Assembly: GCA_027322375.1 (NCBI GenBank)
Contig: DAHVRS010000311.1
Coordinates: forward strand, 1-11,499
Reading direction: 5' to 3'
Origin: Brachybacterium sp.
GTDB taxonomy: Bacteria > Actinomycetota > Actinomycetes > Actinomycetales > Dermabacteraceae
Length of the DNA stretch: 11,499 nucleotides
Below, one piece after another: positions 1,971 through 9,235 of this stretch. The notes under the pieces were generated by a model. The model saw only the letters and a program-made list of their open reading frames with translations, ran no database searches and had not been told where the DNA came from. The translations under genes were made by a program, and so were the position numbers. Position 1 is the first letter of the stretch; every line of letters starts with the position of its first letter.

Positions 1971-2000
1971 AACCTAGGACCCTTGCGCGCCGTGACTCAA
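1971..2000 (-). promoter_or_regulatory. Promoter of the antitoxin-like gene
   Basis: On the - strand TTGAGT (1995-2000) is followed after 18 nt by TAGGTT (1971-1976), a reasonable -35/-10 pair, giving a transcript start near 1964 and a 5' leader of about 45 nt. The same stretch can also be read as GTTT (1999-2002), 16 nt, GGGTCC (1977-1982). This partly matches the GTTT-N14-17-GGGTAT pattern of SigB/SigF-type stress sigma factors in actinobacteria. Which reading is used cannot be told from sequence. Confidence 0.55.
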
Positions 2001-2071
2001 ACGAGACCGAGAAGTCGTCCCCGTTCTGGCCGTCCATGCACGGAATCCCGCCGAACGCGCAGAGAACGCGC

Positions 2072-2077
2072 AATACT
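2072..2077 (+). promoter_or_regulatory. Possible -10 element of a leaderless DeoR promoter
   Basis: AATACT matches 4 of 6 bases of TATAAT and stands 6 nt before the GTG at 2084. No Shine-Dalgarno is present before that GTG, so a leaderless start is the simplest reading. It is weaker than the other -10 boxes in the window. Confidence 0.35.
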
Positions 2078-2083
2078 GACTGC

Positions 2084-2998
2084 GTGACGCCGCGCATTCC
2101 CACCTCCGACGACGCCGCACCCGCCACTTCGGCCACGGCTGCTTCCACGACGACTGCCCCCACCCCGGCCTCGCCGGCACCTGCTCAGTCGGCGCCCGCC
2201 ACTGTGCCCCGCGACCGCAGGGCCCGCTGGGACCACGTGCTCACGCTGCTCGCCTCCACCAAGCGCCTGAACGTCGCGGACGTCGCGCGCGAGCTCAGCG
2301 TCTCCGAATCCACGGTCCGGCGCGACTTCATGGAGATGGAGCGCGCACAGCTCGCCCGCCGCACCCACGGAGGGATCATCGCGATCGACGTCGCCTACTC
2401 GCTGGCGACCGTCCCGCGCAGCGCCGACGAGGGCTCCGCCCAGCGCGAGCGGATCGCCGCCCACGCCTCCACCCTCGTCGAGCCGGGACAGATCATCGGC
2501 TTCAACGGCGGACGCACCACCACCGCGACCGCCCGCCGCACCGTGGCCCGCCCCGACCTCGACTCCCGCGACGGCTCCCCGGGCCTGACCGTCGTCTGCG
2601 CGGCGCTGAACATCGCCACCGAAGCCGTGCTCCGCCCGGCCGTGCGCACCGTGGTCCTGGGAGGCGTCGCCGAGCCCTACTCCTTCGAGCTCACCGGCCC
2701 GCTCGCCACCGCCACCATGCGCGACCTGTGGCTGGACACCATGTTCGTGGGCACCGTCGGCCTGGACCTGAACGCGGGCCTGACCTGCAACTCGGACGCC
2801 GAAGCCGGGGTCACCCGCACGATGATCGGCCACTCCCGCCGCGTGGTGGGCCTCGCCTCCGCAGACAAGATCGGCCACCGGGCGCTCGCCGGGATCTGCC
2901 CCGTCTCCGTCCTCACCGACCTCGTCATCGCCGGCGAGGTCCCGGACGATCTGCGCGCCCACCTCGCCGAGGCCTCCGTGCGCCTGCACGAGGTGTGA
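2084..2998 (+). CDS. DeoR-family transcriptional repressor
   Basis: DeoR/GlpR-type regulator. After a disordered Ala/Thr/Pro/Ser-rich N-terminal tail of about 45 residues comes the winged helix-turn-helix (RWDHVLTLLAS ... LNVADVARELSVSESTVRRD ... RRTHGG). Then follows the DeoRC sensor domain, which in this family binds a sugar phosphate in a phosphosugar-isomerase-like fold (GQIIGFNGGRTTTATA, TVVLGGVAEPYSFELTGPLA, DTMFVGTVGLD, ASADKIGHRALA). From the GTG at 2084 the protein is 304 residues, against about 250-260 for typical members; the excess is the tail. An upstream in-frame ATG at 1925 would add 53 codons with no homology and would overlap the divergent promoter, so I reject it. No sugar kinase or transporter is adjacent, so the regulon is unknown. 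The gene is divergent from the antitoxin-like gene, and they may share control. Confidence 0.85.
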   Translation: MTPRIPTSDDAAPATSATAASTTTAPTPASPAPAQSAPATVPRDRRARWDHVLTLLASTKRLNVADVARELSVSESTVRRDFMEMERAQLARRTHGGIIAIDVAYSLATVPRSADEGSAQRERIAAHASTLVEPGQIIGFNGGRTTTATARRTVARPDLDSRDGSPGLTVVCAALNIATEAVLRPAVRTVVLGGVAEPYSFELTGPLATATMRDLWLDTMFVGTVGLDLNAGLTCNSDAEAGVTRTMIGHSRRVVGLASADKIGHRALAGICPVSVLTDLVIAGEVPDDLRAHLAEASVRLHEV

Positions 2999-3021
2999 CA
3001 GCACGGCTGCACGAGGTGTGA
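2984..3021 (+). repeat. Direct repeat spanning the DeoR stop codon
   Basis: The 15-bp sequence CTGCACGAGGTGTGA occurs at 2984-2998, where it encodes the last residues LHEV and the stop, and again at 3007-3021 in non-coding DNA. The offset is 23 bp, so the second copy is in another frame. It looks like a small tandem duplication of the gene end. The rest of the 153-bp gap up to 3151 holds only the promoter of the next gene as far as I can see. Confidence 0.75.
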
Positions 3022-3138
3022 GCGCACCCGTCCGAGCGCGCCCGCGCGAGAACCCATGTGACCATCGGAACGCGCCTCCTGAACAGGTCCGGGCCTCCGA
3101 GCGCGGCACGCCTGCACTCCGAGATGCCCCGGCCCCGG

Positions 3139-3144
3139 TAGCGT
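3139..3144 (+). promoter_or_regulatory. -10 element of a leaderless promoter for the DUF4011 gene
   Basis: TAGCGT, 7 nt before the ATG at 3152, preceded by GG and followed by GG as in the other leaderless starts here. No purine-rich ribosome binding site is found upstream of 3152. This also decides against the in-frame GTG codons at 3143 and 3146, the first of which overlaps the hexamer itself. Confidence 0.5.
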
Positions 3145-3151
3145 GGTGACC

Positions 3152-6100
3152 ATGTGGAATTTCCTGCGCGGGAAGAAGCGGACGGCGCGTTCCGAGGAGA
3201 GCGTGAGCGTCCCGGACGATGCCCTCTCGGCCCTGGCCAGGGAGCGTCGTGCCGCCGTGGCGGGCACCGCTGCGAGCGCGCCCAGCGCACCCAGCGCGAG
3301 CACTGCCGCGAGTGCGCCGTCGGCCCCGTCGGCCCCCTCCGCCTCGGAGGCGCCCGGCGCCGAGGAGCCGCCCCGCATGCAGGTCCCCCACGGCTACGAG
3401 GTGGTCGTGGACCGCCACCTCGACGAGGTCGGCGCCGGGATCGCGCCCGAGCAGGATGAGGATGACCTGCCCGCCGTCCCGCGTGAGCACCGCCCCCTCA
3501 GCCGCGAGGACCGGGTCGCGGACTCCCTGGACCGCTGGTCCCAGCAGATCACCGGGGGAGTGCAGGCCCCGTCCTTCCTCACCCAGATCCGTGCGGGCGG
3601 CGTGGTCCTGGACCTCACCCACTCCCACCCCTCCGGGCTCGCACAGCTGCTCGCTGGTCGGGGTCCGACGCGCCTGTCCTCCCTGGTGCGCGAGGTGGGG
3701 GCGCTCGCCGACGCCCGCGCCCACGCCCGCTCGATCCGCGAGATCGCCGAGCGCCACGCGGAGGAGGTGGGCCTGACCACCTGCCATCTCGGGATCGGCG
3801 AGGCCGTGTGGTACCCCGAGGACGGCTCCGCCCCGATCCACGCGCCCGTGCTCGTGCGGCCCCTCACCCTGCGCCTGCGCGGCAATGCCCGCGAGGACGT
3901 GGACCTCGAGGTCGACGCGACCGCGGACCTGAACCCCGTGCTGCTGCGCTCCCTGCGCGAGGCCGGGGTCGCGGTCGATGCGCGCGCCCTGCTCGCCACC
4001 ACCGACTCTGCCCACGGCTTCGACCCGAACCCGGTCCTGGACGCCTTCCGCTCCCTCGGTCAGCCGCTGCCCGGCTTCCGGATCCTGCACGCGCTCGTGG
4101 TCGGGAACCTGATGGACGCGGCCGGCTCCGTCGCCGAGGATCTCGACGTCGACCGCCCTGACTGGGCCGCCTCCCCGCTCGTCGCCGCGCTCGCCGGTGA
4201 TGAGGGCGCCCGTGAGGTGGTCCGCGGCGCGGAGGACGCGACCGAGGTGCCCGAGGTGCCGGAGGAGGAGCTCGTCGCCGCGGTCGATCCCGGCCACCGC
4301 CAGGTCCTCTCCCGCGTCCTCGCCGGGCAGGACCTCGCCGTCGCGACTCCGCCGGGCACCACGAGCCTCGGCCTCGTGGTCGACCTCGCCCAGGAGCTCA
4401 ACGCCCGCGGCCGCTCCGTGCTGATCGTCTCCCAGCGCCGCCGCAACCTCGCCCAGCTGGTCGAGATCGCGCAGCGCCGCGGCCTCGAGGAGCTTGTCTT
4501 CGATCTCTCCCCGGACCCGTCCCTGCAGCGCAACGCGTCCGCCGCCCTGCTGCGCAGCCTGCGCCGTGCCGGCACTCACGGGCTCGGCCCGGATGATGAG
4601 GCGCCTGCCGAGCTCGGCGAGAGCCGCGACATCCTCGTGGGCCACGTCGCGGCGATGCACCGCATCCAGGAGCCCTGGGACGCCTCCGCGCATGATGCGA
4701 TCTCCGCGCTCGCGGCCCTGACCCGGCTCAGGCCCGCCCCGCGCACCCAGGTGCGGCTGCGGGCGGACGTCGCCGCGCAGATGATCGGCGCGGACCGGGA
4801 CCGCTTCAGCGAATCGCTGCGCGAGGCCGCCGAGGTGGGTGTGCTCTCCTCCGGCCCCGAGACCACCGCCTGGTACGGCGCACCGATCAGCTCCGACACC
4901 CAGGCCGCACGCGCCGAGGAGCTCGTGGACGAGCTCAAGGAGGACATCCTCCCGCTGCTGCGCCGTGCCTGCGCCCGCTCCGGCTCCGAGCTGGGCCTGA
5001 CCGAGCCCGCGACCCTCACCCAGCTGGGGGAGCGGATCGCGCTGCTGGACCGGGTCCGCGGCGTGCTCGGCACCTTCCAGGCCGCCGTGTTCGTGGCCCC
5101 GCTCGCGGACCTCGTGGCCGCCACCGCGGACAAGCGGTGGCGCGAGGAGCGCGGCGTGACCATGGGCTGGGGTCTGCGCCGCCGCCTGCGCAAGGACGCC
5201 GCCGCCCTGCAGCGCCCTGCCTCCCTGTCCCCGGACCTGCATCGCGACCTCGGCGAGGCCCGCGCGGTCACCGAGGCGTGGCGCCGCGCCGCCGTCGGCG
5301 CCATCCAGGCCGACGGGGCAGTCGCTGCCGACGGGGCAGCCGCCGCCGCCGCGCCGGGGGCGGCCCCCGCTGCCGCGAGCGAGGAGCGGACCACCCGCAC
5401 CCGCCCCACCCTGCCCGACGACCTCGAGTCCGTGCGCCGCGCCGCCGCTCGTGCGCAGAAGGCGCTGGACGAGCTCGCAGTCCTGCTGGATGGGACCGAG
5501 GCCGGCGCCGACCTCGCCCACACCGACCTCGACGAGCTCGAGCAGCGGATCGCCGCGCTCGCCGCGGACCGCCACGATCTCGAGACCCTGCCGCGCCGCA
5601 CCGAGCTGCTGCGCCGCCTCACCTTCGACGGGCTCGGCGAGCTGGTCGAGGACCTGCGTGTGCGCCGTGTGCCCCGCGATCAGGTCGGCGCGGAGCTCGA
5701 ACTCGCCTGGTGGCGCAGCGTCCTGGAGCTCATCGCCGGCGCCGAGCCGACGATCTCCCAGTACGACGGCACCTCCCTGTCTCAGGTCGCCGAGCGGTTC
5801 CGCCGCCTGGACGCCGAGCACCTCGCCTCCGCCGCCGCGCGCGTCCACGCCGCGGCGGACGAGACGCGCGTCGCGACGATGAAGACCTACCCGGACACTT
5901 CCCGCTCCGCCATCGCGGAGCTCGCCCGCTCCTCCACGGTCTCCATCCGCGACCTCGCCGCGAAGTACGAGGACATCCTCTTCGCGGCCCGTCCCGCCTG
6001 GCTCGCCTCCCCGTACCTGGTCCCGCAGGTCATCCCGCGCGGCCGCCACTTCGACGTGCTCATCGTCGCCGACGGCGGGCGCCTGCCCACCGCGGCCGCA

Positions 6101-7918
6101 CTGCCCTCGATCGTCCGCGCCGAGCAGACCGTCGTGGTCGGCGATCCGCTCGAGTACGGCGGGGACTCCGCCCCGAGCCTGCTGGACGACATGCTCCGCA
6201 TCGCCCCGCACCTCGAGATCCTCCGCGACCCGCACCCCGCCACCGAGGGGCTGCGCAGCTTCGCGCAGCGCCGCGCCCTGGCCGGGGAGGTGACCGCCGT
6301 GCCGAGCCCCATCGCGCCCGAGCGGGACCGCCTGGTCATGGTCGAGAACGGCCGCGGTCCGGTCACCGAGGGCATGGAGTACGTGGAGAGCACCGAGGCG
6401 GAGCTGCGTCGCGTCACCGATCTGGTGATCGAGCACGCTCGCACCCGGCCCGAGCGCTCCCTGGCCGTGCTCACCTTCACCGACGAGCACGCCCGGCGCC
6501 TCATGGAGCGGATCATGAACACCGTCTCCGTGATCCCGGCACTGCGCGACTACTTCGACCCGGGCGCGAAGGAGGTCTTCACCGTCCTGCCCGCGGACCA
6601 GGCCACCGCCGTGCTGCGCGACGACATCATCGTCTCGGTCGGCTTCGGCAAGACCCCGCACGGCCGACTCCTGCACCGCTTCGGGCCGCTGTCCGAGGCG
6701 AACGGGCGCAAGGCCCTCGCCACCGTGATCACCCGCGCCCGCGGCCGCACCACCGTGGTCTCCTCGATCGGGGTGCAGGACCTCGACCACGCCCGCCTGC
6801 GCACCGACGGCGCTCGCGACCTGCGCGCGATGCTCTTCGTGCTCCAGGGCGGGCCCGACGTGCCCGTCATCCCGCACGTCTCCGCCCTCACCGGCCATGA
6901 CGTGGAGGTCGCGCCGCCCGTCCCCGAGGCACCGCGCGCCATGCCCGCCGCCCCGATCCAGGAGGGCGTCGGCACGACGACGGGCGCAGAGAATACCGCC
7001 GCCCCCGCCGCGGGCACTGCGGCCGGGAGCGAGGACCTCTCGGACGAGGATCTCGACGCCGCGATCGAAGCGGCGCTCGCCCGCAAGTCCAGCGCGAGCG
7101 CGGACAGCGCCGACCCCGAGGACGCTGGCCCCGACGGCGCCGAGACGGGCGATGCCGCGACCTCGGGCGCTGACCCGTCGGCCGACGGGACTGCCGCCGC
7201 AGCCGCGGCTGCCGAGGGGGCTGACTCCGACGCTGCATCCGACGACGCCAGCCCGTCGGCCGATCCTGACGCCGAGCCGGCCGAGGAGGAGGCGCCCGCA
7301 CCCCGCGCCCCGCGGGCGCTGGAGACCGACGCGCTCGTGCAGGACCTCGCCGACCGCCTCCAGCGCCTCGGCCTGCTGGTCGAGCGGGACTTCGGCCTCT
7401 CCGGCGACCGGATCGAGCTCGCGCTCGGCCACCGCGACATGCCCGGACGGCTCCTGCTCGCCGTGGACACCGACGGCTCCCACTACGTCGACACCCCCAG
7501 CCAGCGCGAACGCGACCGGCTGCGCGCCGAACGGCTCGAGGCGGCCGGCTGGGCGACCGAGCGGGTGTGGTCCTGGGCGCTGTTCATCGACCCCGACGGT
7601 GAGGCGGAGCGGATCCGCCGTGCCGTGGACCGGGCGCTGCGCCTGGTCCAGGCCGAGGAGCGCTCCGACTCGCCCTCCGGCGTGGGCACCATCCGCCACC
7701 GCCTGCCGCGCCCGCAGATCCCTGCCGGTCACCCGCTGTCCTTCTACTCCAGCGACGACTTCGACGCGGTCGTGGAGTACATCTGCTCCGACGGCCGGGC
7801 CCGGCTCGAGGAGCACCTGGCCACCGAGGTGCGCAGCTTCCTCGGCTTCGAGCAGCGCTCCGTGCTGCTGGACGTCTCCGTCTCCAGCGCGATCCGCCGC
7901 TACCAGGAGCGCCAGTGA
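3152..7918 (+). CDS. DUF4011-type SF1 pseudo-helicase fused to a Vsr-like nuclease domain (REase_MTES_1575)
   Basis: A 1588-residue cytoplasmic protein. Order: basic start MWNFLRGKKR; Ala/Ser/Pro tract (about 30-70); DUF4011-like region (about 115-300), recognised by ARSIREIAERHAEE, LGIGEAVWY, APVLVRPLTL and LNPVLLRSLREAG; SF1 helicase core of the Upf1/DNA2 kind (about 375-1245) with a large helical insert and an Ala-rich linker; acidic linker (about 1250-1390); REase_MTES_1575/Vsr-like domain (about 1392-1500) with GHRDMPGRLLLAVDTDGSHY, RERDRLRAERLEAAGW and RVWSWALF; and a C-terminal tail. Key ATPase residues are missing. Walker A reads PPGTTSLG (400-407) instead of PPGTGKT. Motif II reads IVADGGR (971-977) instead of IVDEASQ. 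GDPLEY (997-1002) stands where GDPKQL is usual, and TAVLRD (1152-1157) replaces QGDERD. SVGFGK (1162-1167) and ITRAR (1193-1197) persist. So I infer a helicase fold without normal ATP hydrolysis. Relatives with intact motifs occur in phage defence. The next gene overlaps its stop. Confidence 0.85.
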   Translation: MWNFLRGKKRTARSEESVSVPDDALSALARERRAAVAGTAASAPSAPSASTAASAPSAPSAPSASEAPGAEEPPRMQVPHGYEVVVDRHLDEVGAGIAPEQDEDDLPAVPREHRPLSREDRVADSLDRWSQQITGGVQAPSFLTQIRAGGVVLDLTHSHPSGLAQLLAGRGPTRLSSLVREVGALADARAHARSIREIAERHAEEVGLTTCHLGIGEAVWYPEDGSAPIHAPVLVRPLTLRLRGNAREDVDLEVDATADLNPVLLRSLREAGVAVDARALLATTDSAHGFDPNPVLDAFRSLGQPLPGFRILHALVVGNLMDAAGSVAEDLDVDRPDWAASPLVAALAGDEGAREVVRGAEDATEVPEVPEEELVAAVDPGHRQVLSRVLAGQDLAVATPPGTTSLGLVVDLAQELNARGRSVLIVSQRRRNLAQLVEIAQRRGLEELVFDLSPDPSLQRNASAALLRSLRRAGTHGLGPDDEAPAELGESRDILVGHVAAMHRIQEPWDASAHDAISALAALTRLRPAPRTQVRLRADVAAQMIGADRDRFSESLREAAEVGVLSSGPETTAWYGAPISSDTQAARAEELVDELKEDILPLLRRACARSGSELGLTEPATLTQLGERIALLDRVRGVLGTFQAAVFVAPLADLVAATADKRWREERGVTMGWGLRRRLRKDAAALQRPASLSPDLHRDLGEARAVTEAWRRAAVGAIQADGAVAADGAAAAAAPGAAPAAASEERTTRTRPTLPDDLESVRRAAARAQKALDELAVLLDGTEAGADLAHTDLDELEQRIAALAADRHDLETLPRRTELLRRLTFDGLGELVEDLRVRRVPRDQVGAELELAWWRSVLELIAGAEPTISQYDGTSLSQVAERFRRLDAEHLASAAARVHAAADETRVATMKTYPDTSRSAIAELARSSTVSIRDLAAKYEDILFAARPAWLASPYLVPQVIPRGRHFDVLIVADGGRLPTAAALPSIVRAEQTVVVGDPLEYGGDSAPSLLDDMLRIAPHLEILRDPHPATEGLRSFAQRRALAGEVTAVPSPIAPERDRLVMVENGRGPVTEGMEYVESTEAELRRVTDLVIEHARTRPERSLAVLTFTDEHARRLMERIMNTVSVIPALRDYFDPGAKEVFTVLPADQATAVLRDDIIVSVGFGKTPHGRLLHRFGPLSEANGRKALATVITRARGRTTVVSSIGVQDLDHARLRTDGARDLRAMLFVLQGGPDVPVIPHVSALTGHDVEVAPPVPEAPRAMPAAPIQEGVGTTTGAENTAAPAAGTAAGSEDLSDEDLDAAIEAALARKSSASADSADPEDAGPDGAETGDAATSGADPSADGTAAAAAAAEGADSDAASDDASPSADPDAEPAEEEAPAPRAPRALETDALVQDLADRLQRLGLLVERDFGLSGDRIELALGHRDMPGRLLLAVDTDGSHYVDTPSQRERDRLRAERLEAAGWATERVWSWALFIDPDGEAERIRRAVDRALRLVQAEERSDSPSGVGTIRHRLPRPQIPAGHPLSFYSSDDFDAVVEYICSDGRARLEEHLATEVRSFLGFEQRSVLLDVSVSSAIRRYQERQ
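7905..7909 (+). promoter_or_regulatory. Shine-Dalgarno inside the DUF4011 gene for the coupled small gene
   Basis: AGGAG, 5 nt before the GTG at 7915. It is one of the few strong ribosome binding sites in the window, and it decides the start of the 70-residue gene. Confidence 0.7.
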
Positions 7919-8127
7919 CCACCCCGCGGCGCGGCCGCGTGGTGATCTCCTCGCTCACCGGCAAGCCGATCCCGTGGGACGAGGAGGAGCAGAAGGCGGC
8001 GCGCGAGGAGCACCGCCCGATCCTCCCGGACCGCCTCGCAGAGGACGCGCCCGAGCCCGGGGCCGACGAGTCCAACGATGCGCGGATCGCCGGCGAGGTG
8101 CCCCCGCACTGGGGTCGCGGCCGCTGA
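7915..8127 (+). CDS. Small acidic hypothetical protein, translationally coupled to the DUF4011 gene
   Basis: A 70-residue protein that I do not recognise. It starts at a GTG that overlaps the upstream TGA in the arrangement GTGA, and has AGGAG 5 nt upstream. This is strong evidence for a real gene co-translated with the large protein. The N-terminus is basic with a short hydrophobic patch (MTTPRRGRVVISSLTGKPIPW). The middle is charged and probably helical (DEEEQKAAREE), and the C-terminal half is acidic and Pro-rich, ending GEVPPHWGRGR. There is no signal peptide, transmembrane segment, zinc-ligand set or catalytic motif. Its position makes it a candidate partner or modulator of the pseudo-helicase/nuclease, which is inference from coupling only. 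No obvious terminator follows it. Confidence 0.72.
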   Translation: MTTPRRGRVVISSLTGKPIPWDEEEQKAAREEHRPILPDRLAEDAPEPGADESNDARIAGEVPPHWGRGR

Positions 8128-8287: not shown

Positions 8288-9235
8288 ATGACGGACACCG
8301 CCCCCGCCGCCCCGCCCGCCCTGCCGCGTCATCGGAACCCGGTCGCGAACCTGCTGCGCGGCGCGCTGATCGGCGTGGTCGAGACGGTGCCCGGCGTCTC
8401 CGGCGGCACCGTCGCGCTGGTCACCGGTATCTACGACGAGCTCATCGAGGCCGGCCACCAGGTCACCGCCGCGGCGCGCACCCTCGTCACCGGCCCGGAC
8501 CGGATCGCCGGAGCGCGCGAGCACCTGCGCGGCGTGAACTGGCTGCTCATCCTCCCGCTGCTGGTGGGGATGGCCGCGGCCGTGCTCACCGTCGCCGGCC
8601 CTGTCGCGGGCCTCGTCGAGGACCATCCCGCCACGATGCGCGCCCTCTTCCTGGGCCTCGTCGCCGGCAGCGTGCTCGTGCCCATGCGCCTCTCCGGCGG
8701 GGCATGGCGCCTGCCCGAAGCAGGGCTGTTCCTCGCCGGCGCCCTCGGCGGGCTGCTGCTGACCTCCCTGCCCTCGACCTCGCTCAACCCGAGCCCATGG
8801 GTGGTCGCCCCCGCCGCCGCGCTCGCCGTGTGCGCGCTGGTGCTGCCCGGCGTCTCCGGCTCCTTCCTGCTGCTGAGCGTGGGCCTCTACCAGCCCACCC
8901 TCCAGGCCGTCGACGAGCGGAACCTCGGCTACATCGCCTGGTTCGGGCTGTGGGCGCTCGTGGGCCTCGTGGTGATCGTCCGGATCATGCGGGTCCTGCT
9001 CACTCGCCACCACCGCGGCACCATGGTGGTCCTCGCCGGGATCATGATCGGTGCCCTGCGCAGCCTCTGGCCCTGGCAGTCCACCGAGGGCGCCCTGCAG
9101 GCCCCGGGCCCGGACTGGCCGCTCATGCTGCTGCTGGCCGTGGTGGGCGTCGCGGCCGTGCAGCTGCTGGTCCTCGTCGAGTCCCGCCTCGCCGCCCGCA
9201 CTGACAACGACGACACTGCGGCCACCCGCGACTGA
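8288..9235 (+). CDS. DUF368 family polyprenyl-phosphate translocase (PopT-type)
   Basis: A 315-residue polytopic membrane protein of the DUF368 family. Members (PopT) were shown to return undecaprenyl phosphate across the membrane so the carrier lipid can be reused for peptidoglycan and other surface polymers; in many actinobacteria the carrier would be decaprenyl phosphate. The family hallmark is present twice: VETVPGVSGGTVALVTGIYD (PGVSGGT at 35-41) and LVLPGVSGSFLLLSVGLY (PGVSGS at 187-192). This reflects the internal duplication with re-entrant segments. Hydrophobic helices follow at about 85-107, 117-137, 146-164, 172-185, 217-240, 245-264 and 277-300. The N-terminal 15 residues are Ala/Pro-rich and the C-terminus is charged, both probably cytoplasmic. 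The start has a leaderless promoter. proC follows after 28 bp, apparently with its own promoter, and there is no functional link to it. Confidence 0.92.
   Translation: MTDTAPAAPPALPRHRNPVANLLRGALIGVVETVPGVSGGTVALVTGIYDELIEAGHQVTAAARTLVTGPDRIAGAREHLRGVNWLLILPLLVGMAAAVLTVAGPVAGLVEDHPATMRALFLGLVAGSVLVPMRLSGGAWRLPEAGLFLAGALGGLLLTSLPSTSLNPSPWVVAPAAALAVCALVLPGVSGSFLLLSVGLYQPTLQAVDERNLGYIAWFGLWALVGLVVIVRIMRVLLTRHHRGTMVVLAGIMIGALRSLWPWQSTEGALQAPGPDWPLMLLLAVVGVAAVQLLVLVESRLAARTDNDDTAATRD

Follow-up and report, generated by a model that had tools for sequence, protein, structure and literature searches.

A putative scaffold derived from a helicase-nuclease, with a candidate docking microprotein, in Brachybacterium and its relatives

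We investigated a stretch of 11,499 nucleotides from a Brachybacterium sp. genome (contig DAHVRS010000311.1, assembly GCA_027322375.1; hereafter, the window). Its central gene encodes a 1588-amino-acid protein with the outline of a helicase-nuclease and is overlapped at its 3' end by the gene of a 70-amino-acid microprotein. An earlier note, made from the DNA letters, had described the large protein as a DUF4011 helicase-nuclease with all ATPase signatures eroded; it missed the small gene. The features are given below, where the counts of 115 refer to the aligned proteins of the window's family clade (Brachybacterium/Dermabacter/Helcobacillus-type; Dermabacteraceae).

3152..7918, plus strand: pseudo-helicase/nuclease-fold gene, 1588 amino acids, one open frame; alternative GTG start at 3143
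3719..3946, plus strand: DUF4011 region, residues 190-265 (Pfam PF13195, 21.1 bits, cut-off 22.2)
4349..4372, plus strand: eroded Walker A motif, PPGTTSLG
6062..6082, plus strand: eroded DE box, IVADGGR
6140..6157, plus strand: eroded motif III, GDPLEY, with GD kept
6605..6622, plus strand: eroded QGDERD motif, TAVLRD, with RD kept in 115/115
6728..6742, plus strand: motif VI, ITRAR, kept (first Arg 113/115, second Arg 115/115)
7340..7624, plus strand: MTES_1575 Vsr-like restriction endonuclease (REase) fold, residues 1397-1491
7412..7426, plus strand: altered nuclease residue, IELAL (D>E)
7463..7486, plus strand: altered nuclease strand, VDTDGSHY (E>D; second D kept)
7739..7915, plus strand: C-terminal helical domain, residues about 1530-1588, three helices in the model; ratio of nonsynonymous to synonymous substitution rates (dN/dS) 0.05-0.42 for residues 1500-1588
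7915..8127, plus strand: partner microprotein, 70 amino acids; its GTG start overlaps the TGA stop of the large gene by 4 bases (GTGA); end NDARIAGEVPPHWGRGR

The large gene is uninterrupted from 3152 to 7918, and translation from its ATG agrees with the consensus of its relatives, which begins "MW...". Codon use is native, as the earlier note had held (r = 0.986 against seven neighbouring genes in the window; GC content at third codon positions 0.94). The architecture proposed there, DUF4011 followed by a superfamily 1 (SF1) helicase and an MTES_1575/Vsr-like nuclease, was confirmed. MTES_1575 (PF18741) was the sole Pfam family above its cut-off (62.4 against 38.2 bits). DUF4011 narrowly missed its gathering score in the window protein and is listed for six family relatives (P0030, P0097, P0105, P0107, P0109 and P0113), and no Pfam helicase family was found at E values up to 1. 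The protein has the two-RecA, Upf1-like fold of active SF1 helicases; sequence and structural model together show an Upf1/IGHMBP2-like SF1B helicase fold joined to a Vsr-like nuclease fold. A search of PDB sequences gave no match at E up to 1, and PHROGs had none for either the large protein or its partner.

All the motif strings quoted in the earlier note were recovered, starting at residues 400 (PPGTTSLG), 422 (SVLIVSQRRR), 971 (IVADGGR), 997 (GDPLEY), 1152 (TAVLRD), 1162 (SVGFGK), 1177 (FGPL) and 1193 (ITRAR). Alignment to intact relatives confirmed their matching to replaced ATPase signatures: GPPGTGKSQ of the relatives corresponds to TPPGTTSLG in the window protein, VVFDEASQ to LIVADGGR, GDERQLP to GDPLEYG, and VQGDERDA to ATAVLRDD. 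The claim that Walker A has neither Lys nor Thr stood for the Lys and only locally for the Thr, as Leu follows the Lys position and two threonines precede it. The alignment comprised 236 proteins, 115 of them from the window's family and 110 serving as intact references, which were picked for having the Walker lysine and include Pedococcus, Terrabacter and Angustibacter proteins. The D, E, Q and R of motifs II-IV were present in 110/110 references, as was, by choice, the lysine. Within the window's family, the lysine occurred in 0/114 readable rows (S67, T18, G9, P8, V4, A3, L3, D1, H1; one gap), and the DE box was absent from all 115 (Walker B Asp replaced by A110/S3/T2, Glu by D115). Intact copies in close relatives, which the earlier note had named as the sign that this copy alone had mutated, were thus not found among the family rows. 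The lysine was also lost in 11/121 further aligned rows. All 115 family rows keep the motif V glycines and the motif III GD, as they do the RD of the QGDERD motif.

We next asked how selection is distributed along the gene, using dN/dS by the Nei-Gojobori method for the window against 11 fetched relatives. The ratios, which are expected to be too high because dS is underestimated at such GC content, were 0.21-0.51 for the whole gene, 0.08-0.40 for residues 950-1225, 0.06-0.28 for the REase domain, 0.43-0.88 for the linker and 0.15-0.92 for the stretch around the old Walker A (residues 380-470). In all 11 pairs, this last stretch was looser than the RecA2 side. Internal stops were absent from 25/26 family loci examined; frame problems occurred in L007 and L046. 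These regional values show purifying selection on the protein in the window's family, with weaker constraint around the former ATP site. The motif III GD, the RD and the motif VI arginines, kept in nearly all 115 rows, could indicate a nucleotide switch or cryptic ATPase, in which ATP binding, by way of a shifted lysine or the arginines of motif VI, would still power a change in conformation. We consider this improbable, both from the relaxed Walker A stretch and from families of the same eroded clade that have lost more: f4 lacks the motif III GD and TRAR, and f10 and f20 lack TRAR.

The gene is not peculiar to this family. With an intact orthologue as query (E up to 0.001), 98/99 genomes and 52/52 genera of the window's order had a match; these include fragments, and some genomes hold additional, longer paralogues. 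Across the class, 39/98 genomes had a match, six of them members of the order, and strong matches beyond the order were confined to few families. Taking the best match to a family profile at each locus, we aligned 89 orthologues from 49 genera and 19 families of the order. The unaligned genomes of the 98 were the window's own (G000) and G014, G016, G030, G032, G035, G040, G056 and G092 (fragments or not fetched), which leaves family f16 without representation. One aligned locus (L075) is gapped at the lysine column. Of the 88 orthologues with a residue there, five had the lysine: both f5 genomes and three of the six from f17. It was absent in 16 families, and f12 was not readable. Even a 0.8-Mb genome (G053) retains an eroded copy of 1205 amino acids. 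On these sequence comparisons, we take the window gene to be the Dermabacteraceae orthologue of a near-universal, vertically inherited chromosomal gene of the order.

To place the loss, we relied mainly on a rooted mixture-model tree, with three intact DUF4011 proteins from plasmids as outgroup and no more than three rows per family (f5, f17 and f38 excepted); it is the product of a fast, non-bootstrapped search and contains long branches. In this tree, every row from the order's other 17 families, f5 and f17 set aside, fell into one old clade (46 rows, support 100), next to the f5/f17 group with the intact proteins. The lysine was lost separately in f38, f25, P0119 and part of f17. A single main loss in the common ancestor of most families, with further losses in other lines, is therefore likely but not proven. 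A tree of 59 rows from two protein searches required at least five changes, four of them forced by well-supported branches; the three protein searches listed 120 of 370, 120 of 1122 and 120 of 384 matches. Many independent losses as the main story were suggested by our first tree, built without outgroup or mixture model, which nested intact rows within eroded ones, and this candidate is now weakened. Decay of a single copy was rejected on the family-wide motif loss, the purifying selection and the rooted tree. The related idea of a defence gene drifting neutrally towards loss could draw on the missing catalytic residues and on the frame problems of L007 and L046; we regard it as very improbable, given the near absence of internal stops, the purifying selection, and the order-deep age and retention of the eroded form. 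The suggestion of the earlier note that a non-hydrolysing helicase fold is being maintained, as a separate branch and probably a housekeeping derivative, is supported by these results.

Two sets of sequences outside the main clade deserve mention. In class relatives of family f38 (L123-L127), the lysine is replaced by Arg (GTGRTQ), apparently a separate loss outside the order, and a PPHW-containing frame of the kind described below ends 226-891 bases downstream. A tblastn search with intact P0116 matched one phage record and 381 from plasmids; in no record did matches in a single place cover 80% of the query. Of four replicon records examined closely, three provided the outgroups and the fourth, from Actinomyces oris, holds an eroded copy (L029, positions 7743-12441 of a 415-kb replicon whose record is labelled plasmid). 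This orthologue adjoins mscL, its nuclease site is changed, and its PPHWG frame is separate.

The nuclease site is altered as well. Intact relatives read IDLAV..AVESDG where the window protein reads IELAL..AVDTDG, so that the D and E of the former, taken here as the putative catalytic acids of PD-(D/E)XK and Vsr-type enzymes, are E and D in the latter. Among the 111 readable rows of the window's family, the first position was E104/D7 and the second D101/E5/A3/M2. Across the order, the Asp was replaced by Pro in 39/89 orthologues and the Glu by Leu in 29/89, with Val also seen; both positions were acidic in 25/86 readable orthologues. The nuclease site thus appears lost in many families of the order. 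The earlier view that the helicase fold positions an active nuclease fares poorly here, with both acids changed in the family and plainly lost elsewhere. As the nuclease fold is nonetheless kept, binding or a structural role seems more probable than cleavage, at any rate for the order as a whole. Two sequences, L046 (G029) and P0105 (named Brachybacterium sillae), retain the helicase core and the downstream PPHW frame with a nuclease domain that is absent or no longer in frame.

The microprotein accompanies the large gene closely. A script found such a downstream frame in 23/26 family loci, with the identical 4-base overlap in 22, and searching by the PPHW end recovered it in 27/28 loci (L002-L029); at the remaining locus the contig ends. 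Its invariant columns across 24 sequences were M1, an SSxTG stretch and PPHWG. In other lines the peptide is part of the large protein: a PPHW/PPHY tail was fused in 100 of the 120 rows among the matches listed in the second protein search (e.g. DRWLEEQRPPHWGRD), and in none of P0001-P0115. Order-wide, 16 orthologues had a fused tail, 59 a downstream PPHW-ended frame and 14 neither by the strict pattern, four of the last (all f4) carrying PPHW with a longer tail. A looser pattern gave 13 other matches in 1.0 Mb of order loci; part of the 59 separate matches may therefore be chance, which is probable for the most distant one (L099, at 1.2 kb). We also considered PPHW as a general C-terminal tag and rejected this for the genus, where 29/29 matching C-termini in 30 loci belonged to the partner. 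The genome from which the window comes is 74% complete; in it, the DNA pattern for PPHWG occurred once, at the partner, and a reversed control pattern gave one match. No family in Pfam, NCBIfam or PADLOC matched the peptide. Its being fused in some lines and separate in others suggests that it works with the large protein.

We then examined the genomic context. In most families, varying subsets of the same genes lie downstream: mscL, a SAF-domain gene, fmdB, a penicillin-acylase-like gene, 5-formyltetrahydrofolate cyclo-ligase, glp and a GNAT gene (product names from the Actinomyces oris record; fmdB and penicillin acylase identified by inspection of the sequences). Of 80 genome loci, 71 had one or more of the seven block genes and 63 at least two, most often fmdB (61) and mscL (45). 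The loci with block genes include all five with intact copies and one from another order. Nine of the 80 loci had none, among them most f20 loci examined. The window's family has moved from this block: its gene lies between a DeoR gene and proC/TrkA/TrkH, a synteny fixed in the family and, among the 80 loci, seen solely in its two members. Because the block is shared by most loci, including intact ones, the context favours vertical inheritance of a single gene, with its enzyme activity having been lost in place. A SAF-domain gene is named in a passage on competence in Micrococcus luteus (PMC8467076); we claim no identity between it and the SAF neighbour.

Comparison with known systems placed the protein near defence-type enzymes, which are usually thought patchy and mobile. 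The best library match was PDC-S37, listed in PADLOC as a candidate with no cut-off given, which scored 324 bits in 4 stretches for the window protein and 827 and 853 bits for the intact orthologues P0116 and P0120; the window's form lacks the ATPase. We found the name PDC-S37 nowhere in the open-licence literature searched. ProA (NF058533) and the DUF4011 protein Hhe (NF042953), both anti-phage by library name, were similar to the window protein in several stretches, at 290.3 and 143.5 bits, far under their cut-offs of 1500 and 2000 (models of 1903 and 1797 positions against 1588 amino acids). P0116 and P0120 likewise fall under both cut-offs. Unlike Hhe and ProA, the window gene has lost its ATPase, has a fixed chromosomal place and has a PPHW partner.

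Could the protein still serve in defence, its helicase fold sensing phage nucleic acid without ATP and its Vsr-like nuclease cutting? The names of its nearest described families point this way, as do a REase domain among the most constrained regions and two nuclease positions at which most family rows still have an acid. Set against this are the frequent loss of one or both acids across the order, often to Pro at the first, the scores far under curated cut-offs, and a distribution unlike the usual patchy spread of defence genes: instead of the patchy presence and variable surroundings of a defence island, we observed near-universal presence in the order, with synteny fixed in the family and shared in the order. 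We therefore judge a continuing defence role unlikely, though slightly less so than the nucleotide switch, and the anti-phage function raised by the earlier note is not supported for this gene.

Pseudo-enzymes of comparable kind exist. PriA of Deinococcus radiodurans belongs to another helicase superfamily. It has degraded motifs and no ATPase, and keeps DNA and partner binding; it differs in being confined to one phylum, and its abstract mentions neither a nuclease fold nor a microprotein (PMC4504706). Utp25p is described as another pseudohelicase in PMC9539457. A passage on helicases in PMC9519451 has no bearing on the present protein. MTES_1575 of Microbacterium testaceum combines, like the window protein, an SF-I helicase with a Vsr REase and has in addition, unlike it, HEPN and transglutaminase domains and two winged helix-turn-helix domains, according to a passage of PMC3710099. 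Hhe is counted among helicase-bearing defence systems in an excerpt of PMC12278908. In Pseudomonas aeruginosa, a large DUF4011 core gene flanking the defence hotspot cDHS1 was present in every isolate searched, and the relevant passages are silent on lost motifs or a partner peptide (PMC10250203). As a DUF4011 gene is core there too, core status need not follow from erosion. Neither the eroded branch nor the PPHW partner was described in any title or abstract opening among the partly sampled search results from open-licence literature.

Taken together, what we see looks like an enzyme turned scaffold rather than a dying gene, since it is kept with a tiny neighbour protein in nearly all sampled relatives. 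Our preferred reading, to which we give a probability of roughly 60%, is an ATP-independent, nucleic-acid-binding scaffold with a docking microprotein. It would descend from an active helicase-nuclease of the same kind as Hhe, ProA and PDC-S37, whose ATPase residues were most likely lost a single time before most families diverged and separately in other lines. The present protein would bind nucleic acid without hydrolysing ATP and serve as a scaffold, the PPHW peptide would dock it to another protein, and the nuclease fold would now act mainly as a structural element or binding surface. A bolder version, which we put forward tentatively and at somewhat less than even odds, is that a defence-type helicase-nuclease was domesticated before the order radiated and became a near-universal, catalytically dead two-part scaffold with an ATP-independent chromosomal or RNA job. 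Its parts would be a pseudo-helicase of 1200-1700 amino acids, often also a pseudo-nuclease, and a PPHW docking peptide, in many lines a separate coupled microprotein; PPHW would then be an undescribed docking motif. Either way, a defence-type enzyme occurs in nearly every sampled genome of the order, mostly within a conserved block, having lost its ATPase and, in many cases, its nuclease site. The intact orthologues in that shared block offer natural before-and-after pairs, which makes the role of a non-hydrolysing helicase fold directly testable.

Elsewhere in the window, Rfam at gathering scores and tRNA scans returned nothing. A 1939-codon open frame runs antisense to the DeoR and helicase genes (1997-7816, minus strand); long antisense frames are expected at 75% GC, and we took this one as such a by-product. 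Between the partner and proC, a polyprenyl-phosphate translocase-like gene (VCA0040-like) occupies positions 8288-9235; it was not found in several loci of the family.
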